From Bradyrhizobium sp. 200 (GTDB lineage: Bacteria > Pseudomonadota > Alphaproteobacteria > Rhizobiales > Xanthobacteraceae), in contig NZ_CP064689.1 of NCBI RefSeq assembly GCF_023100945.1, forward strand, positions 5,252,001 through 5,316,000: 64,000 nt of DNA, given 5' to 3'. The position numbers and the translations under genes are program-made. Within the stretch, counting starts at the first letter, position 1. Every line of letters starts with the position of its first letter. Positions 18,617 through 59,579 of this stretch are shown one piece after another. Under the pieces are notes generated by a model, which did not search any database, had not been told where the DNA came from, and saw only the letters and a list, made by a program, of their open reading frames with translations.

Positions 18617-20086
18617 TCACAGCAGGGCCGCGCCAAAATTCTGCTCGGGATCCATGTCCGGCATCAGGCGCCCGGTTGGTTTCGCCGCCTCGCCTCCCGT
18701 GCGCGGAAGGAAGCGGCCCGAGCCTGCCTCGACCGAACGTTTGCCGTCCGCCACGATGACGCGCCCGCGCGACAGCACGGTGACCGGCCAGCCGCGCAGC
18801 TTGCGGCCGACGAAGGGCGTGTAACCGGCCAGGTCATGCATCATCGCATCGCTCAGCGTGACCTCTCGCGCCGAATCCCAGATCGCGATATCCGCATCGG
18901 CGCCAACTGCGATCGAGCCCTTGCGCGGATGCAGATTGTAGATCTTTGCCGGCGCGGTCGCGGTCAATTCGACGAACTTTTCGAGACCCAGGCGGCCCTT
19001 CGAAACCATAGCGTCGAACAGCAGCGGCAAGCGAACCTCGAGGCCGGGTAGACCGTTCGCCACCTGCTTGAAATTAGGATTGGGGCCGGCACGCAGTTTA
19101 CCCGTTTCGTCGAACCGGTACGGTGCGTGATCGGACGAAACGGTCTGGAGATCGCCGAGCGCAAGCGCCTGCCACAGCGCTTCCTGGTCGGCGGCGCGGC
19201 GCGGCGGTGGACTGCACATCCATTTGGCGCCTTCCACGCCGGGCTTGTCGAGATCGTCGGCGGTGAGAAAAAGATATTGCGGACAGGTCTCCGCGAATAC
19301 CTTCAGCCCCTGCCCGCGTGCATCGCGGATCACCTTGGCGCCTTCCGCCGTCGACACGTGAAAGATCATGATCGGCTGGTCGATCAGCGCGGCCATGCCG
19401 ATCAGCCGGTTGAAGGCCTCCGCTTCCGAGACACGGGCATGGCTGATGGCGTGATATTTTGGATCGGTATAGCCCCGCGCCAGCAGCCGCTTCACCATCC
19501 AGGAGATGATGCCATGGTTTTCGGCATGCGCACAGAGCATCGCGCCGCCCTCGCGCGCCGCAAGCAGAATATCGAGAAGCGGTTCGTCGTCGATTTTCAG
19601 GCGATCATAGGTCATGAAGATCTTGATCGAGCCATGGCCTTGCTTGATCAACGCCGGCAGATCGTTCTCCAGTGTCACCCTGGTCGGATCGGCGATGATC
19701 ATGTGAAAGGCATAGTCGATCACGGCGCCCTTTCGCGCGAGCGCGTGGTACTCCTCCAGCACCTGCGGCAGTTTCATGCCGACGTGCTGGGCCGCAAACG
19801 GGATCACGGTGGTGGTGCCGCCAAAGGCTGCCGAGACGGTTGCGCTCTTGAACGTGTCCGCGTTCACGATGCCCGCGGCCGAGAGCTGTTCGATATGGGC
19901 GTGGCTGTCGACACCGCCGGGCAGCACCAGCTTGCCCCGCGCGTCGATCTCCCGCCGCGCACCCGGCAGCCCGTGGCCGACGGCTGCGATCTTCTCGCCC
20001 GAAATGGCGACGTCCGCCTCAAATACGTCGCTCGCGGTCGCGACACGTCCGCCGCGAATGAGAAGGTCGTAGGCGGGCTCGGTCAT
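18617..20086 (-). CDS. Dihydropyrimidinase / D-hydantoinase
   Basis: A 489-residue cyclic amidohydrolase that opens dihydropyrimidine or 5-substituted hydantoin rings to N-carbamoyl amino acids. The binuclear metal site is complete: H62 and H64 in DSHAH, K155 in GSIKIFMTY (carboxylated lysine), H187, H243 and D319 in SSDHAP. It heads the minus-strand run leading to the epimerase, SDR, monooxygenase and ABC transporter. It is divergent from the hydantoin racemase at 20293, and a D-carbamoylase is nearby at 21610; together the three are the textbook hydantoin-to-D-amino-acid set. Allantoinase is a less likely alternative. Confidence 0.93.
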   Translation of the reverse strand: MTEPAYDLLIRGGRVATASDVFEADVAISGEKIAAVGHGLPGARREIDARGKLVLPGGVDSHAHIEQLSAAGIVNADTFKSATVSAAFGGTTTVIPFAAQHVGMKLPQVLEEYHALARKGAVIDYAFHMIIADPTRVTLENDLPALIKQGHGSIKIFMTYDRLKIDDEPLLDILLAAREGGAMLCAHAENHGIISWMVKRLLARGYTDPKYHAISHARVSEAEAFNRLIGMAALIDQPIMIFHVSTAEGAKVIRDARGQGLKVFAETCPQYLFLTADDLDKPGVEGAKWMCSPPPRRAADQEALWQALALGDLQTVSSDHAPYRFDETGKLRAGPNPNFKQVANGLPGLEVRLPLLFDAMVSKGRLGLEKFVELTATAPAKIYNLHPRKGSIAVGADADIAIWDSAREVTLSDAMMHDLAGYTPFVGRKLRGWPVTVLSRGRVIVADGKRSVEAGSGRFLPRTGGEAAKPTGRLMPDMDPEQNFGAALL

Positions 20087-20292: not shown

Positions 20293-20955
20293 ATGTCACG
20301 TCCGCGCATTCTCGTCATCAATCCCAACTCCAACCAACTCGTGACACAAGGGCTGGAGCAAGCCTTGAAGCCGCTCGGCTTTGAAGGCGGACCGGAGATC
20401 GTCTGCGAGACGCTGACCGAGGGCCCCTACGGGATCGAGAGCCAGGCCGACGTCGATGGCGTGACGATGCCGCTGCGCCGCCTCGTCGAAGGCGACAACC
20501 ATTCGGCCGCCTTCGTCATTGCCTGCTACAGCGATCCAGGCCTGCATGTTTGCCGCGAAGCAACCGACCGCCCGGTATTCGGCATCGCCGAGTGCGGCGT
20601 GCTGACGGCGCTCGCGCGCGCAGAAACTTTTGGCGTCATTGCGATCGCGCAGCGCTCGATCCGCCGCCATGTCCGTTACCTCAGGCAGATGGGCCTGACC
20701 GATCGCCTGACCAGGGAACGGCCGCTCAACATGAGCGTCGCGGAGACAGCGTCCGGCGAAGGAACGCTCGCGAAGATGATCGAGGTCGGACGCGCGCTCA
20801 AGGACGAAGACGGATCCGGCGCCATCGTGATGGGCTGTGCCGGCATGGCGCGTCACCGCCGACCGCTGGAGCAGGCGCTCGGGATTCCCGTGATCGACCC
20901 GACCCAGGCGGCCGTGACCATGGCGTTGGGCACGGTGCAGTTCTCGCATCACTGA
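20293..20955 (+). CDS. Aspartate/glutamate/hydantoin racemase family protein
   Basis: A 220-residue two-cysteine racemase: C78 in FVIACYSDPG and C182 in MGCAGM are the paired acid/base thiols of the hydantoin racemase group. The start is the ATG at 20293; the longer upstream frame has no support. It would interconvert D- and L-5-substituted hydantoins so that a stereospecific hydantoinase and carbamoylase can use both. It is convergent with the flavin reductase gene, whose 3' end it overlaps by seven bases. The neighbouring dihydropyrimidinase and D-carbamoylase support hydantoin racemase over aspartate racemase. Confidence 0.9.
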   Translation: MSRPRILVINPNSNQLVTQGLEQALKPLGFEGGPEIVCETLTEGPYGIESQADVDGVTMPLRRLVEGDNHSAAFVIACYSDPGLHVCREATDRPVFGIAECGVLTALARAETFGVIAIAQRSIRRHVRYLRQMGLTDRLTRERPLNMSVAETASGEGTLAKMIEVGRALKDEDGSGAIVMGCAGMARHRRPLEQALGIPVIDPTQAAVTMALGTVQFSHH

Positions 20956-21608
20956 CTTTGGTCGGACGTTTCGGCCGCTCCGTTGCGCACGAGCCATTGC
21001 GCGTGGCTTTCGCGCGTCAGCGCAAAGGTATCGCGCTGGGCGGCGTAGAGATTGCCGAACAAGCGGCCGATCGGCCGGTAGGCATCGAAATCGACATACA
21101 TCTTTTCCAGATCGATCAGGCCCTCGCGCGCGTGCAGGCGCAGCACCTCGCCGACAAGAAGCTCACGGCCGGGCCCGAAGGCAAGCGCGACATGCTGCCG
21201 GCACTCGAATGCGAAGGGTGCCGCGGCCAATCGCGGCACCGCGATATCAATCGACGGCAATGTCTGCAGCCCCGCGGCCTCAACCTCACTGTCACCGGAG
21301 GGAAAGTCGATCGCGCAGTCGTTCATGGCCGCGGCGAGCGCCTCGTCCACCAGATGCACGACAAACTGCCCGCTGCGGTGGATGTTGCGCGTAGTGTCCT
21401 TTGGGCTGAAATCGGCCTTGTGCTGCAGGCCGAGCACCAGAAGGGGCGGATCTTCGGAGAAAACGTTGAAGAAGCTGAACGGCGCTGCGTTGACACTACC
21501 GCTCTCGTCAAGCGTCGTGACCAGCGCGATCGGCCGCGGCACGACGATCCCGCACAGCAGTTTGTACCGGTCGTGCGGATCAAGTTCGCGAAAGGAGATA
21601 CCGGACAC
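20949..21608 (-). CDS. Flavin reductase-like FMN-binding split-barrel protein
   Basis: A 219-residue protein of the flavin reductase-like family. It has the core VVPRPIALVTTLDESGSVNAAPFSFFNVFSEDPPLL region that binds FMN in a split beta-barrel. Members supply reduced flavin to two-component monooxygenases or act as oxidoreductases. It starts one base after the carbamoylase stop, so the two share a transcript. No partner two-component oxygenase is seen next to it; the monooxygenase at 15414 is self-contained. Its role in the hydantoin/pyrimidine pathway is unknown. Confidence 0.88.
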   Translation of the reverse strand: MSGISFRELDPHDRYKLLCGIVVPRPIALVTTLDESGSVNAAPFSFFNVFSEDPPLLVLGLQHKADFSPKDTTRNIHRSGQFVVHLVDEALAAAMNDCAIDFPSGDSEVEAAGLQTLPSIDIAVPRLAAAPFAFECRQHVALAFGPGRELLVGEVLRLHAREGLIDLEKMYVDFDAYRPIGRLFGNLYAAQRDTFALTRESHAQWLVRNGAAETSDQSQ

Positions 21609-21609: not shown

Positions 21610-22542
21610 CTAGTTTTCCGGAGGCGGCACCGCGCCGGTTCGGCTGGTGATCAGGCCGTAATGCTCAATGCGGCGGTGGAGTGCAAAATTGAAGATCGTG
21701 TTCTTGCCGAAGGTGGTGGCGTCGAGATCGCAGGGATGTACCAGCAGTTCATCCTCTTCGGTCTTGGCCTCGACGACGATCTCGCCGTCCGGATCGACAA
21801 TCAGGCTGCCGCCGATCAAGGGGTGGCCATCCTCGACGCCGGCCTTGGCAACGGATACGACCCAGGTCGAGTTCTGGTAGGCGCCGGCCTGAGCGGAGAG
21901 CCGGTTGTGAAACAGCCGCTTCTCGGGCCCCTCCTCGCTCTTCTCGGCATTGACCGAGGGCGTGTTGTAGCCGATCAGCACCATCTCGACGCCTTGCAAG
22001 CCCATCACGCGATAAGTTTCCGGCCAGCGCCGGTCGTTGCACACCGCCATGCCGAAGATACCGCCGAGCGCGCGCCAAACGTTGAAGCCGAGATCGCCCG
22101 GCTCGAAGTAGCGCTTCTCCAGATGCTGGAACGCGCGTTTGGTGTCGAACTCCGAATGACCGGGCAGATGAACCTTGCGGTATTTTCCGACAATTTTAGC
22201 TGATTTGTCGGTGAGGATGCAGGTGTTGAAATGATGTCCATCCGACGTCAGTTCGGCATAGCCGAAATTCATTGCGATCCTGTGATGGGCGGCCCGCTCA
22301 AACAAAGGCCTTGTCGCCGCGTTCGGCATCTCGCGCTCGAACCAGGTATCGACCTCGGCCTGGTCCTCCATGTACCAGCGCGGAAAGAACGTGGTGAGTG
22401 CGAGCTCCGGATAGACGATCAGATCGGTGCCCTTCGCCTTCGCTTCGTCCATCAGCGCAATCATGCGCTTGACGACGGCTTCGCGGCTGTCGGCTTTCTG
22501 GATCGGGCCCAACTGAGCGGCGGCAACATTGATGACGCGCAT
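21610..22542 (-). CDS. N-carbamoyl-D-amino acid amidohydrolase (D-carbamoylase, nitrilase superfamily)
   Basis: A 310-residue nitrilase-superfamily enzyme with the catalytic triad E46 (VYPELALTTFFPRW), K123 (YRKVHLPGH) and C168 (VCNDRRWPE). These blocks match the Agrobacterium D-carbamoylase type closely from memory. It releases ammonia and CO2 from N-carbamoyl-D-amino acids, the product of the hydantoinase. The ATG at 22542 opens MRVINVAAAQLGP; an earlier ATG eight codons upstream lacks a ribosome binding site. A second paralogue lies at 40340-41338. A beta-ureidopropionase activity in pyrimidine breakdown is the main alternative. Confidence 0.93.
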   Translation of the reverse strand: MRVINVAAAQLGPIQKADSREAVVKRMIALMDEAKAKGTDLIVYPELALTTFFPRWYMEDQAEVDTWFEREMPNAATRPLFERAAHHRIAMNFGYAELTSDGHHFNTCILTDKSAKIVGKYRKVHLPGHSEFDTKRAFQHLEKRYFEPGDLGFNVWRALGGIFGMAVCNDRRWPETYRVMGLQGVEMVLIGYNTPSVNAEKSEEGPEKRLFHNRLSAQAGAYQNSTWVVSVAKAGVEDGHPLIGGSLIVDPDGEIVVEAKTEEDELLVHPCDLDATTFGKNTIFNFALHRRIEHYGLITSRTGAVPPPEN

Positions 22543-22945
22543 GGATAACTTTCTCGATGCTTCCATTTAAGGCGGCGTTTGCATGGAAATGAAGCAGTCT
22601 GCGGAGATCGGAGTCCTGTCGGGCTCGATCGAAGTCAGCAGTTAAAGTTTTGGTTCACACGAAGTCAATTCCGGAGACAGTCCGCGTGACGCACGCCAGT
22701 TCTGCGTTTCTGCTCGCCATCGCAGGCCGCTAGTTCTGATGCGCGACGGTCGCCAACTCAATAAAGCCACAGGTTGTCGTTCGGGCCGGCGACGGTGTTT
22801 GATCGCGCGTCATACGCACGACGAATGGTCCCGCTTTCTCGGTCTCGTTTTCAGCGACGGCCCGCGGGCGCAAGAGCCGGCAATGCAGGCCCACGCATCG
22901 TCAACCCCCGGCACCGGAAGGGTTAACGGCTGGTATGTCCTAACG
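22543..22945. other. Non-coding part of divergent intergenic region upstream of carbamoylase
   Basis: About 400 bases with no recognisable gene. A possible minus-strand promoter for the carbamoylase is TTGACT (22668-22663) and TTAACT (22645-22640) with 17-base spacing; the second box is weak. A 69-codon plus-strand open frame at 22739-22948 shows no family features and is treated as chance. Confidence 0.35.
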
Positions 22946-22978
22946 TGACCGAATTCAAATCGCCGTTGTGTTCGGTCA
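22946..22978. promoter_or_regulatory. Inverted repeat flanking the promoter of the URC-like operon (putative operator)
   Basis: Perfect 8-base arms TGACCGAA (22946-22953) and TTCGGTCA (22971-22978) with a 17-base spacer. The right arm sits between the -35 and -10 boxes predicted at 22966 and 22988, so a bound regulator would block the promoter. The regulator is not identified in the window. Confidence 0.55.
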
Positions 22979-22993
22979 AGATCTGACTATACT
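22966..22993 (+). promoter_or_regulatory. Sigma-70-type promoter for URC-like operon
   Basis: TTGTGT at 22966-22971 and TATACT at 22988-22993 with a 16-base spacer; the -10 box matches five of six consensus bases, the -35 box is weak. Transcription would begin near 23000, leaving a leader of about 85 bases with two stem-loops. Confidence 0.5.
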
Positions 22994-22998
22994 ACTGT

Positions 22999-23061
22999 CT
23001 CAGCCGCAGCCGCTGCTGAGATTTTATTGTTGGTGACCAGGCCCGTCTATTCAGGCGGGCC
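22999..23061 (+). promoter_or_regulatory. Structured 5' leader with two hairpins before the URC1-like gene
   Basis: The first stem is CTCAGC/GCTGAG (22999-23004 and 23015-23020), followed by an AT-rich stretch. The second is an 8-bp stem, 23040-23047 with 23054-23061, containing one G-U pair and a 6-base loop, ending 24 bases before the ATG. The second may affect translation; a ligand-binding role is speculation. Confidence 0.4.
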
Positions 23062-23085
23062 GTCGCCGTTTCAGGGTTCGTGGCG

Positions 23086-24336
23086 ATGACTCGTTCCAAT
23101 CGGATTGATCATATTCGCATTACGTCGCACCCGGCACCGGGTGCCAAGCTCAAATTCCCGATCACCTGGGGCGCACCCAGCGCGCGCGAACGCGGGCCGG
23201 TGATCGGCACGGTATCGCGCCCGCAAGACCGCAACGTGATCGGCACCCACGGCGGCTCCTATTCGGTCTATCGCGCGCTTGCCGTCTCATCCGGCGCCCT
23301 CGACCCGATCCGACGTCCGGATCTCACCAATACCCACCCCGCTGAAACCATCGGACCGTTTCCGCAGTGGACCGAGCCGCAGCGGATCGTCTCGCTCGAC
23401 CCGTGGGGACATCTCGCCGCGGAAACTTTTGCGAGCGAGATTACTGAGGGCATCGACATCCGTCCAAGCATTGCCATCACGCGTGCCCGCCTCGATCTGC
23501 CCGAACTGCAAGCGGCGATCGAGGCCGGACGGCTCAAGCAGGATGGCGAGGTCGTGCACAAGAATGGCAGCGTCTCCGTGGTCAAGATTGCGATCGACCC
23601 GGTCTGGTATCTGCCGGGTCTCGCGGAGCGCTTCGCAACCACCGAGAAAAACCTGCGCCGGCAACTGTTCGAGCAAACCGCAGGCATGTTTCCGGAACTG
23701 GTGACGCGGCCTGATCTGCATGTCTTTCTGCCGCCGATCGGCGGCACGACGGCCTATCTGTTCGGCGACGTCGGCAAACTGCCGGACCACTCCACCAGGA
23801 TAACCTGCCGCGTGCATGACGAATGCAACGGCTCCGACGTGTTTGGTTCTGATATCTGCACCTGCCGTCCCTATTTGATTCACGGCATCGAGGAGTGCGC
23901 GCGCGCGGGCCAAAGCGGCGGGCTCGGCATCATCATCTACAATCGCAAGGAAGGCCGCGCGCTCGGCGAAGTGACAAAGTTTCTCGTCTATAACGCCCGC
24001 AAGCGCCAGGAAGGCGGCGATGCCGCGGCCCAGTATTTCGAGCGCACCGAATGCGTCGCCGGCGTGCAGGACGCCCGATTCCAGCAACTGATGCCGGATG
24101 TGGTGCACTGGCTCGGCCTGAAGCGTATCGACCGCTTCGTTTCCATGAGCGACATGAAGCACGATGCGTTGACTGGTCAAGGCATCGAAATCGTCGAGCG
24201 CATCCCGATTCCCGACGATCTCGTGCCTGCCGACGCGCATGTGGAAATCGCGGCGAAGAAGGCCGCCGGCTATTACACGCCGGAGCCAATAGAAAGCCCG
24301 GACAATCCGGTCGGCCGTCCGCTCGAAAAATATTGA
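23086..24336 (+). CDS. URC1-type GTP cyclohydrolase II-like protein (uracil catabolism)
   Basis: A 416-residue protein whose second half is a GTP cyclohydrolase II domain. The zinc site is conserved as C-x10-C-x-C (VHDECNGSDVFGSDICTC), followed by the Arg-containing YNRKEGRALGEV loop. About 200 extra N-terminal residues and the adjacent DUF1688 and upp-like genes mark it as URC1, the key enzyme of the URC uracil-degradation route first described in the yeast Lachancea kluyveri, rather than riboflavin-making RibA. The ATG at 23086 has AGGG nine bases upstream; a GTG six bases earlier is too close to it. First gene of a three-gene operon. Confidence 0.9.
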   Translation: MTRSNRIDHIRITSHPAPGAKLKFPITWGAPSARERGPVIGTVSRPQDRNVIGTHGGSYSVYRALAVSSGALDPIRRPDLTNTHPAETIGPFPQWTEPQRIVSLDPWGHLAAETFASEITEGIDIRPSIAITRARLDLPELQAAIEAGRLKQDGEVVHKNGSVSVVKIAIDPVWYLPGLAERFATTEKNLRRQLFEQTAGMFPELVTRPDLHVFLPPIGGTTAYLFGDVGKLPDHSTRITCRVHDECNGSDVFGSDICTCRPYLIHGIEECARAGQSGGLGIIIYNRKEGRALGEVTKFLVYNARKRQEGGDAAAQYFERTECVAGVQDARFQQLMPDVVHWLGLKRIDRFVSMSDMKHDALTGQGIEIVERIPIPDDLVPADAHVEIAAKKAAGYYTPEPIESPDNPVGRPLEKY

Positions 24337-24343
24337 GGGTGCT

Positions 24344-25588
24344 GTGTCCCCCGTGACCACGGAGACGTCGGCTGCCTTGTCATTGCTGAACGCCAGCGCG
24401 GTCCGCGAGCGCGCGCATCGCATGCTCGCCATCGGCCTTGAAGGCAAGCTTCCAAACTTCCGCGTCGGTCTGGATCGCATGGACGGCGCCGTCGATCTGG
24501 TGCTGGAAACGACGCGCAAGGCCTATCCTTCGTTCGACGTGCCGTTTCACTCGCGCTGGCGGCACTTCGTCACCAATGGAGACGACCGTTGGTCTGGTGT
24601 TGCCGACCGGGCCGGCTGGCCCGACCGCGCGGCCCGCGCCCGGGCTGAATTCGATCTGGCCATCGTCAGCGTCTTCCTCGATGCCGGCGCCGGTCCGTCG
24701 TGGCGCTACCACGATCCGAAAACCGGATCAGCCATCAGCCGTTCGGAAGGTCTGGGACTGGCTAGCCTCGCCATGTTCACGGGCGGCGCCTTCTCGGCTG
24801 CTCCCCAAGACCCCTTGCGCGTTGATGCCAGCATGCTCGCGAATCTTGGCGTTAACGACCTTGAGCGGGGCATGCAGGTCTCTGACGTCAATCCGCTGGT
24901 CGGACTGGACGGCCGCGCCGACCTGTTACGTCGCCTGGGGCGGCTGGTGGCCTCGAAACCGGAAATATTCGGCAGCCGCGACACGCCGCGGCCGGGCGGC
25001 CTGTACGACCGGCTTGCAATGCTGGCAGACGATGGAAAGCTGCCTGCCCCAACGGTTTTAACCGAACTGCTACAACAACTCGGGCCGATCTGGCCATCGC
25101 GGCTGACGCTGGGCGGGATCGCGCTCGGCGATTGCTGGCGACATCCGGCATTGACGACCGCGGATGCCACCAGCGGCCTGGTGCCGTTGCACAAGCTTTC
25201 GCAATGGCTGGCCTATTCCCTCATCGAACCACTGCAGACATCCGGCATCGGCGTGACCGATATCGACGGCCTGACCGGCCTTGCGGAATATCGCAACGGC
25301 GGGCTGTTCGTCGATACCGGGGTGCTCGCGTTTCGCGATGCAGCAGCAGCCCAGCAAGAACATGAGGTATCGTCAGAGCTTGTCGTGGAATGGCGTGCGC
25401 TGACGGTAGCGCTGCTTGACCGCGTCGCGGACGGTCTGCGGCACCGGCTTGGACGCGATGCCACATCGATGCCGCTGGCGAAAATTCTCGAGGGCGGCAC
25501 GTGGGCTGCGGGCCGGCGGCTGGCGCGCGAACGCCGCGCCGACGCGTCGCCTCCGGTGAAAGTCATCAGCGACGGCACGGTTTTCTAG
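24344..25588 (+). CDS. URC4/urg3-family protein (DUF1688)
   Basis: A 414-residue protein recognised as the DUF1688 family, which includes fungal URC4. It starts [27 protein letters not shown] with recurring segments such as [18 protein letters not shown] and [14 protein letters not shown] text near residues 100-145, and a conserved [15 protein letters not shown]. No known catalytic motif is visible. The start is a GTG with GAGGGTG upstream, eight bases after the URC1 stop. The biochemical step is unsettled in the literature known to me; the constant pairing with URC1 and a Upp homologue places it in uracil breakdown to urea and a C3 acid. Confidence 0.88.
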
Positions 25589-25604
25589 ATCCGAGGTCAC
25601 AGAC

Positions 25605-26234
25605 ATGGACGGCGTTACGATCGTTAATCACCCGCTGGTTCAGCACAAGCTGACCCTGCTGCGGAAGAAGGACATTTCAACCAAGTCGTTTCGCGAACTC
25701 CTCAAGGAGATCGGGATGCTGCTTTGTTACGAGGTCACCCGCGATCTGCCGCTGGCCGACATCGAAATCGAAACACCGCTCGCGCAGATGAAGTCGCCGC
25801 AGATCGCGGGCAAGAAGCTCGTGTTCGCGCCGGTGCTGCGCGCCGGCGTGACCTTTGCGGAAGGCATGCTCGATCTGGTGCCGACCGCACGGATCGCACA
25901 TATCGGCCTTTACCGCGAGCCGGAAACCTTCACTGCAGTGGAATATTTCTTCAAGGCGCCGAGCGATCTGCATGAGCGGCTGGTGATCGTGATCTCGCCG
26001 GTGCTGGCAACGGCGAACTCCGCCGTCGCCGCGGTCGACCGGCTGAAGGAGCGCGGTGCGAACGACATTCGACTGGTATGTCTCATCGGCGCACCGGAAG
26101 GCGTTGAGCGCATACGCGGCATTCACCCGGACGTTCCGATCTGGCTTGCGGCGATCGACCAGGGACTGGACGGCAACGCCTACATCGTGCCCGGTCTCGG
26201 TGACGCCGGCGACCGTGCCTACGGCACGAAGTAG
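25605..26234 (+). CDS. upp: Uracil phosphoribosyltransferase homologue with divergent PRPP loop
   Basis: A 209-residue Upp-family protein, normal in length, with the C-terminal uracil-binding [17 protein letters not shown] conserved. The PRPP-binding loop, usually DPMLATGGS, here reads SPVLATANS (residues 131-139): the acidic residue is replaced by Ser and the Gly pair by Ala-Asn. The second block [16 protein letters not shown] also differs from the usual VPILRAG form in its latter half. It sits 16 bases after URC4, in the position of the URC6 step (uracil to UMP). It may be a specialised or altered-activity enzyme. The next gene is convergent. Confidence 0.9.
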
Positions 26235-26256
26235 GCTAGCGAGCTGCGGCACGGGA

Positions 26257-28241
<1,985 letters not shown>

Positions 28242-28245
28242 TGGA

Positions 28246-29169
28246 TCAGAGACTCTTTGCCATTCGCGGATCGAGCGCATCACGCAGGCCGTCGCCAAGC
28301 AGGTTGACGGCGAGCACGGTGACGGACAGGAACGCGGCGGGAAAGAAAACGATGTAGGGCTTGACCTGCCAGAGCGCCCTGCCCTCGGCCATGATGTTGC
28401 CCCAGGACGGAATGGTGGGCGGCGTGCCGGCGCCGATGAAGGACAGGATCGATTCCACGATCATGGCGCTGGCGCAGATATAGGTTGCCTGGACCAGCAT
28501 CGGCGCCAGCGTGTTGGGCAGGATGTGACGCAGGATGACCATCGGCGTTCGCGTGCCGGAGGCCGTGGCAGCGTCGACATAAGGCTGCTCGCGCAGCGAC
28601 AGCACGACGCTGCGCACCAGCCGCGAGACGCGCGGGACTTCGGCAATCGTGATGGCCAGGATGACATTGCCGACGCTCGCGCGTGTCAACGCCATCAGTG
28701 CGACGGCGAGCAGGATCGGCGGGATCGACATCAACCCGTCCATGAACCGCATGAGGATGCTGTCCGCCCATCGCACGAAACCCGAGATGAGGCCGATGGC
28801 GAGACCGGCGAGTGAGGACAGTAGGGCTACCGACAGGCCTACGGTGAGCGAGACCCGTGCCCCGTAGAGCACCCGTGAATAGATGTCGCGGCCCAGCAAA
28901 TCGGTGCCGAACCAAAAATCCGCGGAAGGCAGGCGCGTACGCTTGGCGGGCGCGAGCGCGGTCGGATCGACGGTCCCGAGCCAGGGCGCGAAGATCCCGA
29001 CCAATACGAGGCAGAGCAGCAAGACGCCGCCGATCGCAACCGTCGGATGGTTGCGCAGGAAGCCGAACACACCGCGCCGGATCGCCACCGGCACCATCAG
29101 GTCCGGTAGTTGCGGCGCAATAACGAGGCCCGGCGGCACCGATGCAGTTCTGGTGATGGAGATGCTCAA
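28246..29169 (-). CDS. Peptide-type ABC transporter permease, DppC-like
   Basis: A 307-residue permease with the [20 protein letters not shown] segment, an EAA-type loop ([17 protein letters not shown]) and the tail [17 protein letters not shown]. The proposed start is TTG at 29169, whose bases overlap the dppB-like stop as TTGA, the same four-base coupling seen elsewhere in the window. The alternative ATG at 29097 would shorten the protein by 24 residues and has no visible ribosome binding site. It pairs with the DppB-like permease. Confidence 0.93.
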
Positions 29170-30107
29170 TAGCGGATCCTCGGATCGACCAGGGTGTAGG
29201 TGACGTCGACCATCAGGTTGACGAGCACATAGAGGAAGCTGAACAGCAGCACGATGCCCTGTATGACCGGATAATCGCGGCGCAGGATCGCGTCGATCGT
29301 CAGCCGGCCAAGGCCCGGAATGGCGAACACGCTTTCGGTCACCACCGCGCCGCCGATCAGTAGCGCGATGCCGATACCGATCACCGTCACGATCGGAACG
29401 GCTGCGTTCTTCAGCGCATGAACGAACAGGATGTTGCGTTGCCCGAGGCCTTTGGCGCGGGCGGTGCGGACATAATCCTGCTGCAGCACCTCGAGCATGG
29501 AGGCGCGGGTAATGCGCGCAATCAGCGCGATGTAGACGCTGCCGAGGGCCAGGGCGGGAAGAATGAGGTTCTGCAGCCATGGCCAAAGGCCGGCGGCCAG
29601 CGGCGTGTAGCCCTGCACGGGAAGCCATTCGAACTGTAGCGCGAACACATAGGCAAGCACGTATCCGACAACAAAGACCGGAAGCGAAAAGGCGAACACG
29701 GCAAATGCCATGATGGTGCGGTCGATCCAGGTTCCTGCCTTCCACGCCGCCGCGACGCCGAGCGGCACCGCGACAAGGATGGTCAGGACGAGCGTAATCG
29801 CCATCAGCGAGAACGTCGGCTCGATGCGCTGCGCGATCATCGAGGCGACCGGCAGGTTGGTGAAGATCGAGGTGCCGAGATCGCCATGCAGGATATGCCA
29901 GAGCCAGCTCCCGAACTGGATCAGAAACGGCCGGTCGAGGCCGAGGCCCTGGCGTATGCGCTCGACGTCGGCGGGGCTCGCCTGATCGCCTGCGATCACC
30001 GCGGCCGGATCGCCCGGCGCGATGTAGAGCAGACTGAAGACGAACAGCGCGACGATCCCCATCACGGGCAAGGTCGAGAGTACGCGCCGGAGGATATAAG
30101 AGACCAT
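29166..30107 (-). CDS. Peptide-type ABC transporter permease, DppB-like
   Basis: A 313-residue permease starting MVSYILRRVLSTLPVMG with FSLLYIAPGDPAAVIAGD, the DppB hallmark, and the EAA-type loop VRTARAKGLGQRNILFVHAL. The ATG at 30107 is 16 bases after the binding-protein stop; the longer frame upstream overlaps that gene and is unlikely. Inner-membrane channel subunit of the 26257-31728 transporter. Confidence 0.94.
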   Translation of the reverse strand: MVSYILRRVLSTLPVMGIVALFVFSLLYIAPGDPAAVIAGDQASPADVERIRQGLGLDRPFLIQFGSWLWHILHGDLGTSIFTNLPVASMIAQRIEPTFSLMAITLVLTILVAVPLGVAAAWKAGTWIDRTIMAFAVFAFSLPVFVVGYVLAYVFALQFEWLPVQGYTPLAAGLWPWLQNLILPALALGSVYIALIARITRASMLEVLQQDYVRTARAKGLGQRNILFVHALKNAAVPIVTVIGIGIALLIGGAVVTESVFAIPGLGRLTIDAILRRDYPVIQGIVLLFSFLYVLVNLMVDVTYTLVDPRIRY

Positions 30108-30123
30108 GTGGGTTACTGCACCG

Positions 30124-31728
30124 TCATGCCGTCTTCGACACACCCCAGAAGAAGGGCAGCGGTCCCTTGGCGATACCGGAGACGTTCTTGCGCCACGCCG
30201 TGTAGCTCAGGAAGAAACCGGTCGGCGCATAGACAACATCTTCCATCGCCGCCTTGTTGAGGCGCTTCGCCGCAGCCTTCTCCTCATTGAGATTTTTGGC
30301 ATCGAACCACGCCGTGACTTCCTTTTCCACGACCTCGCTCGTAGGCCAGCCAAACCACGCCTTGTCGCCATTGGCGCGAATGGCGTTGTAGGCGGCGGGA
30401 CTGATGCAGTCCGCGCCGGCGTGCCAGGTGTGAAACATTCCCCAGCCGCCTTGGCCCGGGGGCGTCTTCTGGGCGCGGCGGGAACCCACCGTGCCCCAAT
30501 CGGTCGCAACGAAGTCGACATTCATGCCTATTTGCTTCAACAGATCGGCTGTGACATCGCCTTGCGCCTTGGTGATCGGTTGATCCTGCGCCACGACGCA
30601 GGTGACCGGCTGGCCTGAATAGCCGCTCTCGGCCAGCAACTTCTTGGCCATTGCGAGATCGCGCTTGCCCTTCAGGATCTCGCCACCCTCCTCCGTGTAA
30701 AGCGGCGTGTCCGGCGTGAAGAAGCCGGGCAGCGGCTTCCAGAGCGCGGTATCGTCGCCGACCAGCGCGCGCATGTAGTCTTCCTGGCTCAACGCTGTGA
30801 GCACGGCACGTCGCACCTTCACATCGTTGAAGGGCGGATGCAGGTGGTTCATCCGGAATGAACCGATGTTGCCGAGCGGATCGGCGATGTCGACGTTGAT
30901 GTTGCGGTTCTTCTTGAGCGACGGCACAAGATCGGTGATGGGACTCTCCCACCAATCGACTTCGCCGTTCTGCAGTGCGGCCGCAGCCGTGGCGGGATCC
31001 GGAATCACCACCCATTCGATACGGTCAACCAGCATCTGCTTGCCGCCGGCGAGCCAGGATGCCTTCTCCTGCCGCGGCGTGTAATCGGCGAACTTCTCGA
31101 ACACCGCCTTGGCGCCGGGTACCCATTCGCCCTTTGCGAATTTCATCGGGCCCGAGCCGATATATTCGGGGATCTGCTTGAACGGGTCGGTCTGGGCGAT
31201 GCGCTCCGGCATGATGAAGGCGCAGGGCGTGCTGTTCTTGCCCAATGCCAGCAGCATCTTCGGATAAGGCGCCTTCAGCGCCCATTTGAAGGTTCGGTCG
31301 TCGACGGCGGTCAACTCGTTCTGGATCGCCTTGAGCATCAGGCCCATGGGGTCACGCGCCGACCAGCGCGCGAGGCTCGCCACCACATCCTTGCTCAGCA
31401 CCGGCGCGCCATCGTGAAACTTCAGCCCCGGCCGGAGCCGAAAGGTCCAGACCAGACCGTCATCGGACACCTCCTCGGACTCGACCATCTGGCGCTGTGG
31501 CTGCAGCGTGGCGTCGAGGCCGTAAAGGGTGTCCCACACCAGCGCGGCGGCGTTGCGCACGACATACTGGGTCCCCCAGATCGGATCGAAATTCGCGAGG
31601 TTGGCCTGCGGCACAAACCGCAGCGTGCGCGCGGCCGCGCCTTGGGAAAGCGCCGGCATCGATAGGCCGCCCGTCACCGCCAAGCTGCTTACCCCGGCCA
31701 ATCCTTTCAACACAGTCCTGCGATCCAT
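30124..31728 (-). CDS. Extracellular solute-binding protein, family 5 (Tat-exported)
   Basis: A 534-residue family-5 receptor. The start at 31728 has GGGAGAG upstream and begins MDRRTVLKGLAGVSSLAVTG, a twin-arginine-type signal. The mature part contains KFHDGAPVLSKDVVASLARW, MPERIA and GSGPMKF. It strongly resembles the receptors at 34578 and 44012 in these blocks. It is the cognate receptor of the permease/ATPase set directly downstream. A substrate that is an amide, hydantoin or related compound is suggested by the two amidohydrolases upstream (inference). Confidence 0.93.
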   Translation of the reverse strand: MDRRTVLKGLAGVSSLAVTGGLSMPALSQGAAARTLRFVPQANLANFDPIWGTQYVVRNAAALVWDTLYGLDATLQPQRQMVESEEVSDDGLVWTFRLRPGLKFHDGAPVLSKDVVASLARWSARDPMGLMLKAIQNELTAVDDRTFKWALKAPYPKMLLALGKNSTPCAFIMPERIAQTDPFKQIPEYIGSGPMKFAKGEWVPGAKAVFEKFADYTPRQEKASWLAGGKQMLVDRIEWVVIPDPATAAAALQNGEVDWWESPITDLVPSLKKNRNINVDIADPLGNIGSFRMNHLHPPFNDVKVRRAVLTALSQEDYMRALVGDDTALWKPLPGFFTPDTPLYTEEGGEILKGKRDLAMAKKLLAESGYSGQPVTCVVAQDQPITKAQGDVTADLLKQIGMNVDFVATDWGTVGSRRAQKTPPGQGGWGMFHTWHAGADCISPAAYNAIRANGDKAWFGWPTSEVVEKEVTAWFDAKNLNEEKAAAKRLNKAAMEDVVYAPTGFFLSYTAWRKNVSGIAKGPLPFFWGVSKTA

Positions 31729-31962
31729 AGCGCTCTCCCTGTCTCGGGTTGTCATGGCGGTTCCGGCCAATTCATCGGTCGGAGGTTCGATGCCGCACGA
31801 GGTAAAACGGGCCAGTCAAACCGATGCCAATCAGTCTCCTCTTGCCTGCAAGCGGTATGCCAGCAGGGCCCGCTCGCGCGCCTGCCGATCTCCGGCCAGC
31901 CACACAGCAAGTCCTTTCGGGCGATCACATTTTCGCGCGGTCATAGCCATTTGCGGTTCTGC

Positions 31963-33207: not shown

Positions 33208-34581
33208 TCAACCATTGAAGGCCACCTGAGCTTCCGGCAAATCCCAGATTTTGCCGATTGCCGCTGACGCGGCCGCTACCATCGCGGTCTCGTCACCGTG
33301 AAGGTATCGGCCCGCATCGATCAGCACGCGCCCGTCGACGATGACCTGATCGATGTTGGCGCGGTTGCCAAGCGCGACCAGCCCGCGCCGCGGATCGAAC
33401 AGCGGCTGCAGATGGGGATGGGTCAGATCGACGACGGTGAGGTCGGCGGTCGCGCCTGGTGCGATTATTCCCAGGTCCGGCCGCTTGATGACCGCCGCCG
33501 CGGTTGCCGTGACCGAATCGATCAGCTCTGGTGCGTTGGCTACGTCAGCGCGGGCGGATGCAATCTTCGAGATCATCGACGCGGCGTTGAGCTCGCCGAG
33601 CAGATCCATGTTGTAGCCGTCGGTTCCGACGACGGTCCGGACGCCGTGCTCCGCGAACCGGCCGAACGCTGCGGTAACGCCTGAGCGCGCGAACACGCGC
33701 GGGCAGTTCAGCACCGTGGCGCCCCTCGCCGCCATCAGCTTCAGATCGCCGTCGGTGCTGGCGATGCAGTGCGCCGCCATAAGATCAGGCGCCAGAAGGC
33801 CAAGCCAGTCGAGATATTCAGCCGGCGTGCGACCGCCGTGCCGGCTTCCGATCGTCGCGACTTCGGCCTGGCTTTGCGCCAGATGGGTGGTGATGGGAAC
33901 ATCGAGTTCACGCGCGCGGGCGGCACACGCCCGCAGCAGATCCGGACCGCAGGTGTCGGTCGCATGTGGACTCATCGCAAGGCCGATCCGGCCGTCGCCG
34001 CGTCCGTTCCAGCGCTGGTATAGCACGTTCCACGTGTCCATATCGGCCTGGCCATCGTCGCCCGCGTAATGCACCACGCCGTCCGGTCCCGCTTTGGCAT
34101 CCGACGTCGAAAACAAATACGGCGCACCATAGAAGCGGATTCCCATTTCCTCGGCGGCGTCGAACATCTCCGGAATTGTGTTGCGGAACGGCTCCATGAC
34201 CGTGGTGGCGCCACCCTTCAGCAATTGCAGGATGCCGAGCCGCGCGATGGCGCGCCGCTCCGACGGCGACAGCATGTCGGCGCCGCGCTTGGTCAGCGGC
34301 AGCAGCACCGTATAGACGATGCTCTGGTTATTCCGGCGACCATTACCGTCCTCGGTGTGCGTCCGGGCGACGGCTTCGCTGAAGCAGTGGTTGTGCAGGT
34401 TCAGAAGTCCGGGCAGCACGAAACGGCCCGGTCTGTCGAATACCTCGGTTGCGGAGGGCCGGTCGCGCTTGACGGCGGCGATCCGTTTGCCTTCCAGCAA
34501 CACCCAGTGATCGCGCAGCACTTCCTGTGCGCCGTCCTTTCGCGACAGCACATAGCTGCCAAAGATCGCGATTGTGCTCAT
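33208..34581 (-). CDS. Amidohydrolase of the TrzA/AtzA/cytosine-deaminase-like group
   Basis: A 457-residue mononuclear amidohydrolase. Metal ligands visible are H63 and H65 (LLNLHNH), the His in ITTHLAQS, the His in MAAHC and the Asp in VGTDGYN. The usual Glu after the third His (HxxE) is Gln here. Relatives deaminate or dechlorinate triazines, purines, melamine or S-adenosylhomocysteine. The ATG at 34581 overlaps the binding-protein stop by ATGA, so it is co-translated with that receptor. The substrate is likely a nitrogen-ring compound captured by that receptor (inference). Confidence 0.9.
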   Translation of the reverse strand: MSTIAIFGSYVLSRKDGAQEVLRDHWVLLEGKRIAAVKRDRPSATEVFDRPGRFVLPGLLNLHNHCFSEAVARTHTEDGNGRRNNQSIVYTVLLPLTKRGADMLSPSERRAIARLGILQLLKGGATTVMEPFRNTIPEMFDAAEEMGIRFYGAPYLFSTSDAKAGPDGVVHYAGDDGQADMDTWNVLYQRWNGRGDGRIGLAMSPHATDTCGPDLLRACAARARELDVPITTHLAQSQAEVATIGSRHGGRTPAEYLDWLGLLAPDLMAAHCIASTDGDLKLMAARGATVLNCPRVFARSGVTAAFGRFAEHGVRTVVGTDGYNMDLLGELNAASMISKIASARADVANAPELIDSVTATAAAVIKRPDLGIIAPGATADLTVVDLTHPHLQPLFDPRRGLVALGNRANIDQVIVDGRVLIDAGRYLHGDETAMVAAASAAIGKIWDLPEAQVAFNG

Positions 34582-36161
34582 GCCGGTTTCACATTCCAGA
34601 ACACGGCCGTGCCGTCGAGGATGCCAGTGATGTTCGAGCGGTACGCCGTCGGTTGCTTGTACTGACCGATCGGGAAGTAGGGAATTTCCTCGAACGACAA
34701 CGCCTGGATATCGCGGCAGATGCGCTGCTGCTCGGCAAGGTTGGCGGCAGCGAGCCACTGGCTTCGTAGCGCGCCCATCTTATCGCTCTTGTACCAGCCG
34801 GCCACTTTGCTGTCGCCGCGCAGGTTCGAATTGCCAGCGGGGTTCAGCCAATCGATGCCTTGCCAGTTGCCAACGCCAGCGCTCCAGCCGCCCTGAGCGA
34901 TGGGATCCTTTTTCAACTGCCGCTGCAACACCGCGCCGAAATCCAGTCCGGCATATTCGACGTTCATGCCGGCCTGCTGCATCATGTCGGCTGCGATGTC
35001 GCCGAGCGGCTTTTGTGCAAGCGAGTTGGTGGGAACGAGCAGGACCACCTTCTCGCCATTGTAACCGGCAGCTTTCAGATCGGCCTTGACCTTCGCCATG
35101 TCGCGCGGCCCGCGGAACACATCGAGGCCGACGTCGCTCGCCATCGGCGTACCCGGCGCGAAGAAGCCGATCGGCGAGGATTGATAGGCGGGATCATCGC
35201 CCGCAACCGCCGTCATGAAGGCGGACTGATCGATCGCGCCCAGCAGCGCCCGGCGGATGGCGGGATTGTCGAACGGCGGCTGCAGATGGTTCACGCGCAA
35301 CATGCAGGTGTAGCCCCGCGGATCGAGAACCCGCGTGGTGATGCCGCCGGTACGCTTCAGCACCGGCAGCAGGTCGTGCGGCGTCGTTTCCTGCCAATCC
35401 TGCTCGCGCGTTTGCAGCGCAGCCACCCCTGTTGCCGCATCCGGCATCGTCGTCCAGACCACGCGGTCGTAGTGAACGATCTTGGGACCGGCGGCCCAAT
35501 CGGGCTTGCCGTCCTGACGGGGTTGATAGCGATCGAAACGGGCGTACACGTTGCGCGCGCCCTGCACGCGCTCATCGGCCACGAAGCGGAAGGGACCGCT
35601 GCCCACGACCTCGGCCAGCGGCTTGAACGGATCCTGGCTTGCCAGCCGCTCCGGCATCATGAACGGCGCCTGGATCGCGGCCTTGCCGAGCGCCGCAGGC
35701 AGCAGAGGGAAAGGCCTGCTCAGCCGAAAACGGATGGTGCGGTCATCCGGCGCCGACAGTTCGTCAGTTGCGGCCATCAGTTCGGCGCCAAAGCCGTCGC
35801 GGGCGGCCCATCGGCGAATGCTCGCGACGCAATCGCGCGCCAGCACGCGTTCGCCATCATGCCATAGCAGGCCATCGCGCAGCGTCAAATCCCACTGCCG
35901 CTCGTCGTTGGAAACGACATGCCCGGACACCATCTGCGGAGAGACATCGAGCGCCGAATTCATGCCGTAGAGCGTGTCGTAGACCATAAATCCATGGTTT
36001 CTGGAAACCTGCGCCGTTGAGTAGATCGGATCGACGAAGGTCAGGTCGATCACCGGAATAAAGCGCAGCGTGGTCTGCGACTGAGCCCGCAGGATTCCTG
36101 GCAAAGACGCCACCGGCGCTGCAGCGGCGGCCTTTAACAGTGAACGACGGGTAACCAGCAT
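34578..36161 (-). CDS. Extracellular solute-binding protein, family 5 (orphan, Tat-exported)
   Basis: A 527-residue family-5 receptor beginning MLVTRRSLLKAAAAAPVASL, a twin-arginine-type signal; AGGAG lies seven bases before the ATG at 36161. It shares the LLWHDGERVLARDCVASIRRW and MPERLASQDPFKPL blocks with the receptors at 30124 and 44012. No permease or ATPase gene of the peptide type is adjacent; the nearest set is 26257-30107. It is fused by overlap to an amidohydrolase gene. It probably feeds the shared transporter with an alternative substrate. Confidence 0.92.
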   Translation of the reverse strand: MLVTRRSLLKAAAAAPVASLPGILRAQSQTTLRFIPVIDLTFVDPIYSTAQVSRNHGFMVYDTLYGMNSALDVSPQMVSGHVVSNDERQWDLTLRDGLLWHDGERVLARDCVASIRRWAARDGFGAELMAATDELSAPDDRTIRFRLSRPFPLLPAALGKAAIQAPFMMPERLASQDPFKPLAEVVGSGPFRFVADERVQGARNVYARFDRYQPRQDGKPDWAAGPKIVHYDRVVWTTMPDAATGVAALQTREQDWQETTPHDLLPVLKRTGGITTRVLDPRGYTCMLRVNHLQPPFDNPAIRRALLGAIDQSAFMTAVAGDDPAYQSSPIGFFAPGTPMASDVGLDVFRGPRDMAKVKADLKAAGYNGEKVVLLVPTNSLAQKPLGDIAADMMQQAGMNVEYAGLDFGAVLQRQLKKDPIAQGGWSAGVGNWQGIDWLNPAGNSNLRGDSKVAGWYKSDKMGALRSQWLAAANLAEQQRICRDIQALSFEEIPYFPIGQYKQPTAYRSNITGILDGTAVFWNVKPA

Positions 36162-36198
36162 CGAGAACTCCTGGAATGATATTTGATCCGCACGGCTC

Positions 36199-37083
36199 TC
36201 AGTTGGTAGCCGCTTCGTGACGTTTGAAATTCGCCGCGATCGCTTCGCCGGTCGCGATCCACAGATCGGGGCAGGATTTGGCATAGGTCAGAAATTCCCG
36301 CAGCAGCCGAAGCCGCATCGGACGGCCGCTGCATTGCGGATGCAGCACGGTCGTGACCATCGCACCCCAGTCCCTGACCTCGTCGAGCTCATCCTTCCAG
36401 ATCGACAGCACATGCTCCTTGGGAAAGATCGGCCGCGGGCTGAATCGGGCGGACAGTCCGTGCATCCAGTCGTCGTAGCTTGCGGTCACCGGAAGCTCGA
36501 TCGTGCCTGGCCTGCCATCTGTGAGGCGATGGCGGTAAGGCCGCACATCGTCGCGAAACGAGGAAGTGTAGACGATGCCGTGGCGCACCAGCGCCACGCG
36601 CAGCTCTTCGGTGAATTCGCCGTAAGGAGCCCGATAGCCGGTCGGCTTGACGCCAAGCCGGCGCTTCAGCGCCTCAAACCCCCGCTCCAGTTCCTCCTCG
36701 ATCCAGGGGTCGCCCGGATCCGGCAGCAAATGGTGATAGCCGTGGTGGCCGATTTCATGACCCGCCTTGAGGATGGCTTCTGCCATCGCGGGATGCGCAT
36801 CCACCGACCAGCCGGTGACGAAGAACGTCGCCTTCAAATCAAGCTGATCGAGCAACTCAAGGAGTTTCGGCGTGCCGACGCGCGCCTCGTAGCCGCCATA
36901 GCTCATCGTGATGAGGCGCTGGGCGTGCAACGCGTCCTTGCTGGTCCAGGCGCTCTCCGCGTCTACGTCGAAGGAGAGGAACATCGCCGAGGTGTACGGC
37001 TTCGGCCAGGGATAGTCCGGAGCCGGCGGCGCGGTGTTGGCGGGAATGAGCGGAATGCTTGCAAGCGCTTTACTGTCCAGCAT
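36199..37083 (-). CDS. Polysaccharide deacetylase-family protein (PuuE/allantoinase-like)
   Basis: A 294-residue NodB-fold protein with MFLSFDVDAESAW (Asp metal/catalytic region), GHEIGHHGYHHLLPDP (paired His) and YRAPYGEFTEE. In catabolic loci this fold includes PuuE-type metal-independent allantoinases and N-acyl or cyclic amide hydrolases, which fits the surroundings better than cell-wall deacetylation. There is no signal peptide, so it acts in the cytoplasm. Its start overlaps the amino-acid receptor gene by 14 bases. The precise substrate is unknown. Confidence 0.85.
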   Translation of the reverse strand: MLDSKALASIPLIPANTAPPAPDYPWPKPYTSAMFLSFDVDAESAWTSKDALHAQRLITMSYGGYEARVGTPKLLELLDQLDLKATFFVTGWSVDAHPAMAEAILKAGHEIGHHGYHHLLPDPGDPWIEEELERGFEALKRRLGVKPTGYRAPYGEFTEELRVALVRHGIVYTSSFRDDVRPYRHRLTDGRPGTIELPVTASYDDWMHGLSARFSPRPIFPKEHVLSIWKDELDEVRDWGAMVTTVLHPQCSGRPMRLRLLREFLTYAKSCPDLWIATGEAIAANFKRHEAATN

Positions 37084-37885
37084 TGATGGTCGCCTTCTCT
37101 ACGCCGTAATCGGTCAGTTTCCATTTCGCGAGCAAAGCACGGTAGGTGCCGTCCGCGATCAAGGAGTCCAGGGCTTCCACGACCGCCTGCTGGAGCGCCT
37201 TCTCCTTGATGTTCAAAGCGAGCCCCGTGAACTGGACCGCGAACACGTCGCCGACCGGGACATAGGTGCCCGGCTCCAGGTCCATCATGTAGGGAAGCGT
37301 CTCGCCGCCCTGGACGGCCGCGTCGATCCGTCCCTGCCTGAGCTGGGTGCGGGCATCGGCGGATCCTTCCGTGCCGACGAATTGAATCGGGTTGCCGCCG
37401 CAATGGGCTTCGCTCCAGGCAGCGATCAGCTTCGGAAAGGACGTGCGCCGGCTGGCGCCGACCTTTTTCCCGCAGAATGCAGCCGTGTCCTTGAACTCGG
37501 CGGCGCGCGCGTGCTGCACGAAAAATCGAGGCCCGTTGCGCAGGTAGTCGACAAAGGTCGCCGTGTCCTGTCGGCTCGCCAGATCAGTCATGCCGGACAG
37601 GATCGCATCCACCCTCCCCGTCGAAATCGCAGGCATCATCTGGTCGAAACTGGTTTGCTGCCAGTCGATCTTGATACCGAGCTTCTTGCCGAGCGCCTCG
37701 CCAAGCTCGACGTCGAATCCAGTCAAGGTGTTGGTCGCGGGATCGCGAAATTCCAACGGCGGATAATTCGGTACGATGGCGACCTTGATGCTGCCCTGCT
37801 TGGCGATTTCCGGAGGCAGCTCGATCGCCATGACCGGAGCATTGGCGGCACTGAGGAACGCAACTGCAAGAAAACGTTTCATCAT
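37070..37885 (-). CDS. Amino-acid-type ABC transporter substrate-binding protein (family 3), second receptor
   Basis: A 271-residue family-3 periplasmic receptor. Signal peptide MMKRFLAVAFLSAANAPVMA; mature part IKVAIVPNYPPLEFRDP and GFDVELGEALGKKLGIKIDW are standard. It closely parallels the receptor at 39514 (CGKKVGASRRTSFP, QLRQGRIDAAVQGGETLPY). Both belong to the same minus-strand operon, which has one permease and one ATPase. It likely binds a charged or ureido amino acid. It precedes the PuuE-like gene. Confidence 0.93.
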   Translation of the reverse strand: MMKRFLAVAFLSAANAPVMAIELPPEIAKQGSIKVAIVPNYPPLEFRDPATNTLTGFDVELGEALGKKLGIKIDWQQTSFDQMMPAISTGRVDAILSGMTDLASRQDTATFVDYLRNGPRFFVQHARAAEFKDTAAFCGKKVGASRRTSFPKLIAAWSEAHCGGNPIQFVGTEGSADARTQLRQGRIDAAVQGGETLPYMMDLEPGTYVPVGDVFAVQFTGLALNIKEKALQQAVVEALDSLIADGTYRALLAKWKLTDYGVEKATINAGQ

Positions 37886-37898
37886 AAAATTTGCCCCA

Positions 37899-40338: not shown

Positions 40339-40339
40339 G

Positions 40340-41338: not shown

Positions 41339-41472
41339 TGCCTCCAATCTGAGCGGACTGCTTACTCAAGAGGCGGATGATCCCGCTCCGATAGCGCTCC
41401 GATGCAGGGGTGATTACGCGGAAGCGCAGCCCTAAACGCAATCACTCGTGCTATGATATTTTCAGTGAGACA

Positions 41473-41487
41473 ATAACCGGTAGTTAT
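41473..41487. promoter_or_regulatory. LysR-type T-N11-A palindrome abutting the lysR start codon
   Basis: ATAAC-CGGTA-GTTAT has perfect 5-base arms, and T41474-N11-A41486 fits the LysR box. It ends at the base before the ATG of the LysR gene, so a bound protein would also block that gene's own start (autorepression, inference), while the divergent carbamoylase promoter lies upstream. Confidence 0.6.
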
Positions 41488-53473: not shown

Positions 53474-53743
53474 TCCAAATCTCCGCATGCTGACCAGCGA
53501 ACTGTAGCCAAATGTTCAGCAATTTCCATGCCACTGACTGCTCCCGCGGAGACGTGCCAAGCTATTTTGCCGGGTGCCTATGCAGCGCAATTTCGACGAA
53601 CTCGCCTCCCTTGCCCGCAACTGCAGCGCTCGCAAGCGCAACCGACTTTTTGCAACAAAATCCGCCAGAAGCGCGGTCAAGCCTGATTGTTCGATCAGCA
53701 CGCCAGCGCGGGCTTCAGCTCGTCGTCCAGACGCACCAGTGCG

Positions 53744-59553: not shown

Positions 59554-59579
59554 GCAGCATTTCCCTCAAGGGCGAAAAC

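Follow-up and report, generated by a model that had tools for sequence, protein, structure and literature searches.

A bacterial URC-type uracil-degradation operon with a terminator-like leader hairpin next to a D-hydantoinase gene set in Bradyrhizobium

Introduction

According to the available part of PMC7530994, URC1 and URC6 of yeast convert uracil into ribosylurea and 3-hydroxypropionate, and URC4 degrades the former to urea, while the accessible text of PMC3869809 describes the organisation of the URC genes as conserved in fungi and bacteria. URC1, URC4 and URC6 of Lachancea kluyveri and urg1 and urg3 of fission yeast belong to the same protein families as three genes of Bradyrhizobium sp. 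200 analysed here, which lie in a stretch of 64,000 nucleotides (contig NZ_CP064689.1, positions 5,252,001 to 5,316,000; in the following, the window) of a 9.49 Mb genome present as one contig, whose closest named relatives are Bradyrhizobium. Unlike in the yeast system, the three genes are adjacent, the outlet for urea is probably urease and not urea amidolyase, and an RNA-like leader, present in many Rhizobiales, precedes the genes.

Next to the URC genes lies a set of hydantoin genes. For Bradyrhizobium BTAi1 and ORS278 the available part of PMC3546935 describes a hyu cluster with the racemase gene reversed between hyuC and hyuH; the window shares this gene set and the reversed racemase, but carries URC between hyuC and an ABC transporter, and a link with URC is not mentioned in that part of the paper. 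As in the PreTA and Rut pathways, the window encodes a flavin reductase as well as an enzyme of the hydantoinase/dihydropyrimidinase family; in contrast to these pathways, PreA and RutA were not found in the genome and the carbamoylase is of another type.

Taken as a whole, the locus is best explained, with a fair degree of probability, as a bacterial URC operon in which URC4 would act as an N-ribosylhydrolase, urea would be passed to ureases and a leader hairpin would precede the genes, the hydantoin set being separate. Confidence in this explanation is slightly lowered because E383 of URC4 is not invariant and plain profile scores are weak.

Results and discussion

The URC cassette

URC1, which starts with GTG at 23080 or ATG at 23086 and ends at 24336 (plus strand), encodes a GTP_CH_N plus GTP cyclohydrolase II-like ring-opening enzyme, with profile scores of 268 bits for GTP_CH_N and 52 bits for GTP_cyclohydro2. 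Against the NCBIfam model NF005536 (PRK07198) the protein scores 745 bits (cut-off 403), in contrast to at most 58 bits for RibA-type models, by which a RibA-type riboflavin enzyme is ruled out, and its best PDB structures are 7eev and 7ej3 with 594 bits, as compared with 43 bits for the RibA chain 2bz0. Upon alignment with 2bz0, three cysteines, the EGR motif and the D-x-R pair coincide, which we take to be the zinc ligands and catalytic residues of RibA. URC4 (24344-25588, plus strand), a proposed N-ribosylhydrolase of 414 amino acids, matches DUF1688 with 474 bits, and UPRT (Upp/URC6; 25605-26234, plus strand), predicted to convert uracil to uridine monophosphate (UMP), matches the Upp model with 275 bits (cut-off 114). 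The original prediction had recognised a URC1-like gene rather than RibA, a DUF1688 URC4 gene and a Upp homologue, and thus the URC route instead of RibA/RibB riboflavin synthesis, and each of these assignments is upheld by the profile scores and the comparison with 2bz0; in the sequence check set in advance, URC1 did not group with RibA and the gene at 24344 did not fall outside DUF1688.

Gene order and linkage were counted in the 80 loci most similar to the query out of 578 confirmed loci and in a second, hand-chosen set of 40 loci, composed of 20 of the 26 matches of a phylum sample and 20 of the 114 matches of a genus sample with omission of the linked genome G200; 17 loci of the first and two of the second set are shorter than 19 kb. 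URC1, URC4 and UPRT follow each other in this order on one strand in 73 of the 80 query-like and 38 of the 40 chosen loci, a recurrence which makes a chance assembly of the cassette untenable. In the phylum sample 26 of 398 genomes carry DUF1688, as do 114 of 146 in the genus sample, both figures including the window genome. The URC cassette is ordinary for Bradyrhizobium, and the route is known, though little studied. Around 29 diverse loci, with 114 of 116 neighbouring open reading frames (ORFs) scanned, no family was present in more than five of them. In some loci of this genus, forming a group, the gene divergent from URC1 encodes a threonine-synthase-like pyridoxal phosphate-dependent enzyme (in L072 at 6551-7798), the family of which is found in 16 of the 40 chosen loci.

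In the proposed pathway, UPRT would convert uracil and phosphoribosyl pyrophosphate (PRPP) to UMP, and URC1, which has the GTP cyclohydrolase II fold, would act as a cyclohydrolase, opening the pyrimidine ring of UMP and releasing its three-carbon part so that (5-phospho)ribosylurea is left. URC4, the substrate of which may be ribosylurea 5'-phosphate, would then cut the N-glycosidic bond to give urea and ribose (5-phosphate), a type of cleavage suggested by its probable remote kinship with Q_salvage/Qng1, and the urea would be fed to the ureases of the genome.

URC4 and the Q_salvage family

Fungi and bacteria share a uracil pathway in which Urc4 is a core enzyme. The original prediction had called its biochemistry open, and the open-licence literature searched indeed goes no further than the conversion of ribosylurea to urea (PMC7530994, available part). 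A remote relationship of URC4 with Q_salvage (PF10343; DUF2419/Qng1), the family of the queuosine 5'-phosphate N-glycosylase, appears likely as judged by sequence comparison. In Pfam scans Q_salvage came up below threshold in 20 of 51 and 8 of 25 URC4 proteins (best E 6.7e-4), with no further family recurring beyond 3 of 51, and when 60 whole genomes were scanned in all six frames (E up to 10), seven of the 11 Q_salvage matches, including the three best, lay inside URC4. Compared by hhalign with 25 vertebrate Q_salvage proteins (alignment A5, drawn from 120), URC4 is co-linear over 174 columns, an aligned length that none of 600 shuffled controls reached. Within this block 13 conserved positions of the vertebrate members coincide with URC4 (11 identical, two similar), which was equalled in one of the 588 shuffled alignments that could be parsed out of the 600. 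One of the 120 listed Q_salvage proteins, P0247, bears both Pfam labels.

The residues K284, Q287, E315, R317 and W387 are invariant in both sets of aligned URC4 proteins, of 25 and 51 members; of the alignments, A2 holds 50 of the 80 query-like loci and the window, with L174 excluded for its broken frame, and A3 holds 45 of 75 possible rows. The available part of PMC11592518 reports an active-site pair D298/W302 for the S. thermophilus enzyme of the Q_salvage/Qng1 family, which E383-x3-W387 of URC4 resembles by eye, although this motif lies just outside the aligned block. E315, which is invariant and aligned with D239 of the vertebrate Q_salvage proteins, appears from these alignments to be a better active-site candidate than E383. 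Given the likely remote kinship, URC4 would be an N-ribosylhydrolase, with ribosylurea or the corresponding 5'-phosphate as the suggested substrate from which urea is released. If true, the kinship with Qng1 names the reaction, the substrate class and the residues to mutate, the five invariant positions given above.

A number of observations weigh against this assignment. Among the URC4 scans all Q_salvage matches stay below the gathering score of 25 bits, the URC4 of the window obtaining 17.4 bits, and none of the 60 genomes exceeds the cut-off; in the same genomes only seven of 45 with URC4 gave a match in URC4, while 38, including that of the window, gave none. The hhalign comparison has an E of 0.07-0.09 and a probability below 1%, and its score, which 17 of 300 controls with shuffled columns and 82 of 300 with shuffled blocks also reached, is not significant. 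The URC4 profile scores at best 10.1 bits on Q_salvage proteins (median 2.8, reversed sequences below 0), which is less than the 12.6 bits obtained by one of 2400 shuffled sequences, and PDB profile searches with URC4 returned noise and no Qng1. Likewise, E383 is not invariant, one of 25 and six of 51 rows having glutamine instead, and four loci (L141, L151, L152 and L153) carry URC4 without a nearby URC1, L152 being also without UPRT. As distinct from Q_salvage/Qng1, URC4 is a longer protein, remains below the family cut-off and is encoded in a uracil operon; at an E of 0.001 no Q_salvage match was obtained from 299 phylum genomes, and hence no bacterial member in that way. The weak direct profile scores and the non-significant profile-profile score are what would be expected if the likeness arose by chance and URC4 hydrolysed the ureido (amide) bond or had another role, an alternative which we nevertheless consider not very likely, as Q_salvage matches recur in the same region and conserved residues coincide.

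With the N-ribosylhydrolase assignment, a gene for phosphopentomutase (deoB) near URC would be fitting, either for the ribose-phosphate product or for the supply of PRPP. Such a deoB gene was found in 12 of the 132 loci searched, of which 127 hold URC4 (L133, L138, L142, L145, L147, L148, L150, L060, L161, L162, L159 and, on the other strand, L172), with a close adenosine deaminase beside it in two of them (L159 and L161).

The leader of the operon

Upstream of URC1 the window contains a conserved terminator-like hairpin (23032-23067, core 23040-23061, plus strand), seen in the leader alignment, with GTTT and a stretch containing GGG downstream of it, and upstream of the hairpin a putative promoter TTGTGT-N16-TATACT (22966-22993, plus strand), identified by eye in the same alignment. 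Neither was listed by a consensus scan, and none of the 4227 Rfam models matched the region 22400-26500 at an E up to 1. A hairpin of the pattern GGCCCGYC-N5/6-GRCGGGCC, in which the lower stem is extended and a T stretch follows, is found in 76 of 121 URC1 leaders, including that of the window, and a terminator-like hairpin occurs in the last 110 nucleotides of 77 of the 121 leaders as compared with 90 of 1989 control upstream regions, leaders without the core having one in just 2 of 45 cases. In 40 genomes of the same genus the core is present at 45 places, 30 of which are within 3 kb of URC4. It thereby accompanies URC4 in 30 of the 31 genomes that bear this gene, the exception being G431 with URC4 close to a contig start, and is found at four places in the nine genomes without URC4.

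The window leader folds with -27 kcal/mol (z -4.4), and nine leaders have z values from -0.9 to -4.4. The leader alignment A6 comprises 47 of the 76 leaders, all selected by the core pattern, so that the core is necessarily invariant and the lower stem, the register of which shifts between clades, is the only independent part. To judge from this sequence pattern, the hairpin probably controls read-through into the operon, and may thereby act like an attenuator, as it probably does in many Rhizobiales operons. That the element acts instead as a DNA operator for a regulator would be consistent with the nearly palindromic core and with the covariation analysis as far as whole pairs are concerned: neither the count of pairs altered on both sides (4, as against 3.9 in shuffles) nor that of pair types (14, as against 14.2) is in excess, and a slide by +3 scores even slightly higher (0.157 versus 0.144). 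An operator is however unlikely, as the spacing varies between 5 and 6, a T:G position breaks the DNA symmetry while keeping an RNA G-U pair in 42 of 46 rows, and, among rows that are related to each other, 29 stem cells are changed on both sides as against 16.5 for shuffles, none of 500 of which came as high, with 85% of cells being paired in the original register and 34-58% after sliding. As an attenuator-like element, the leader hairpin would provide a handle on the switching of the pathway in these bacteria.

The operon itself is known. The likeness of URC4 to Q_salvage and the leader occur in no open-licence paper found, in a search that used no leader-RNA terms, and seem new, although other print may hold them. 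The bolder proposal that DUF1688 represents a new branch of the Qng1 superfamily splitting 5-phosphoribosylurea, together with an undescribed attenuator-like leader tied to the pyrimidine or nitrogen state, is put forward as tentative, being somewhat doubtful.

Other uracil routes in the genome

The URC genes constitute the only uracil-degradation route recognised in the genome, though not every conceivable route was searched. PreA, the dihydropyrimidine dehydrogenase, was not found in the genome, the single DHO_dh-family match of which is an ORF that, from its start, we take to be class 2 PyrD. RutA was not found either, the best match having 109 bits with a cut-off of 498, and the Rut route is rejected on these figures. 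Two urease alpha genes score over the cut-off. As URC is the sole recognised uracil route, a single deletion would be informative in this genome.

The hydantoin gene set

The neighbouring genes upstream of URC encode a D-hydantoinase/dihydropyrimidinase (HYD; 18617-20086, minus strand; TIGR02033, 624 bits), a hydantoin racemase (Asp_Glu_race; 20293-20955, plus strand; PF01177, 177 bits), a flavin reductase (20949-21608, minus strand), assigned by a profile match and by comparison of loci an optional member of the set, and an N-carbamoyl-D-amino-acid hydrolase of the CN hydrolase type (CARB; 21610-22566, minus strand), assigned by profile and PDB matches. CARB matches N-carbamoyl-D-amino-acid hydrolases of the PDB with 395 bits as compared with 30-60 bits for chains named beta-ureidopropionase, and a carbamoylase of the latter type is absent from the neighbour set, to which this search was confined. 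The original prediction had named dihydropyrimidinase, carbamoylase and flavin reductase, all of which are present, and had overlooked the racemase between hydantoinase and flavin reductase. Hydantoinase, D-carbamoylase and racemase, the components that define a D-hydantoinase (hyu) system, are all present, and the neighbours are such a system, with predicted activity on 5-substituted hydantoins. A minus-strand ORF at 20296-20997 is rejected as a conserved new gene since it is antisense of the racemase, with stops in the frames of several relatives. Elsewhere in the genome a second hydantoinase above the cut-off is located at 3.36 Mb, without a carbamoylase match in the surrounding 20 kb.

These assignments bear on the proposal that the neighbours belong to the reductive type of pyrimidine breakdown, so that URC and the reductive route would work side by side or share enzymes. 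In its favour, the family of the hydantoinase often opens dihydropyrimidines as well (PMC3546935, available part), and the adjacency of URC and hydantoin genes recurs across loci and in the genus sample. The neighbours are nevertheless not of the reductive type, because a racemase is present and CARB is of the D-amino-acid type, and the reductive route is rejected as no PreA was found. Moreover, apart from the window genome, 113 genomes of the genus sample bear URC4, and 106 of these have no such racemase within 10 kb, although draft contigs can hide some; one of the 106, G502, has only a distant racemase paralogue within this distance. The reading of the original prediction, in which two pyrimidine routes coexist, with neither PreA nor RutA and with a racemase, a D-hydantoinase and a D-carbamoylase as neighbours, is thus highly improbable, and the adjacency does not imply that enzymes are shared.

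How frequent, then, is the adjacency? A locus was counted as linked if two or all three of the genes for hydantoinase, racemase and carbamoylase, each with at least 60% identity, lay within 10 kb of URC4, which was the case in 5 of the 80 query-like and 1 of the 40 chosen loci. In the genus sample, where the antisense ORF at 20296-20997 served as position marker for the racemase, 71 genomes carry URC4 and the marker, and the two are at most 10 kb apart in eight of them, including the window's own; random placement in mutually independent genomes would give 0.17 of 71, and a paralogous racemase is within 10 kb in 1 of 49. The original prediction had proposed to count how often a carbamoylase or dihydropyrimidinase lies near URC. 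By this count the adjacency is a recurrent trend, in which the D-hydantoinase set would be a separate catabolic unit settling repeatedly next to URC.

A functional link of the hydantoin set with URC, for example via ureide products of damaged or turned-over nucleosides or via shared nitrogen control, would account for this excess over the expected value. The two arrangements of the set, upstream and divergent in the window, L093, L096, L098, L120 and L180-L185 or downstream on the same strand as URC in L100 and L104, speak for such a link, as do six changes of the linked state on the URC4 tree, at least four of which are forced by starred branches. The tree, of 124 rows (126 minus the duplicates L163 and L181, with L183 missing as its URC4 is cut), is however enriched for linked rows, as L180, L182, L184, L185 and L186 were fetched for racemase proximity, and the genomes are not independent. 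Furthermore, the two genes are not found within 10 kb of each other in 63 of the 71 genomes, with the reservation that they share a contig in only 31.

The URC block can also be absent. In the window it spans 3.57 kb (22707-26277, plus strand; edges 22705/22707 and 26277/26279), followed by a dipeptide-type ABC transporter (26257-31770, minus strand). Two relatives (G517 and G416, loci L189 and L190) keep the hydantoin island with CARB joined directly to the ABC transporter, and G416 carries a 90% identical URC block elsewhere (L089). As these relatives retain the island without URC, the two units separate cleanly, and as the sequence upstream of CARB is intact in both for at least 138 bp, the two promoters are separable, all of which makes a functional link unlikely. 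The clean empty sites agree rather with neutral clustering of URC, hydantoin, histidine and transporter genes in one reshuffling catabolic region without biochemical coupling, as does the variable right flank of URC, which consists of the ABC transporter, hut genes or amidohydrolases, with URC coming after hutU instead in L073, L088 and L125. Hut genes are on the other side of URC in L098, L180, L181 and L182. Although the proximity of this one gene set exceeds random placement, neutral clustering is regarded as moderately probable. Cumulatively, the region appears as a reshuffling nitrogen-catabolism region, in which URC and the hydantoin genes may be functionally linked.

Further catabolic genes are present in the window. 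At 55098-62794 it carries hutU, hutH, an amidohydrolase gene in the place of hutI, and genes for HutF, a GntR regulator and an NMT1-type binding protein. A pair of HyuA/HyuB-type genes (oxoprolinase/caprolactamase-like), which represent another kind of hydantoinase, is found at 49728-53488. The region 33208-42387 encodes an amidohydrolase, a protein of the polysaccharide-deacetylase family, an amino-acid-type ABC transporter, a second carbamoylase-like CN hydrolase and a LysR regulator, and much of its gene order recurs beside URC in L120 and L185 and, reversed, in L186.

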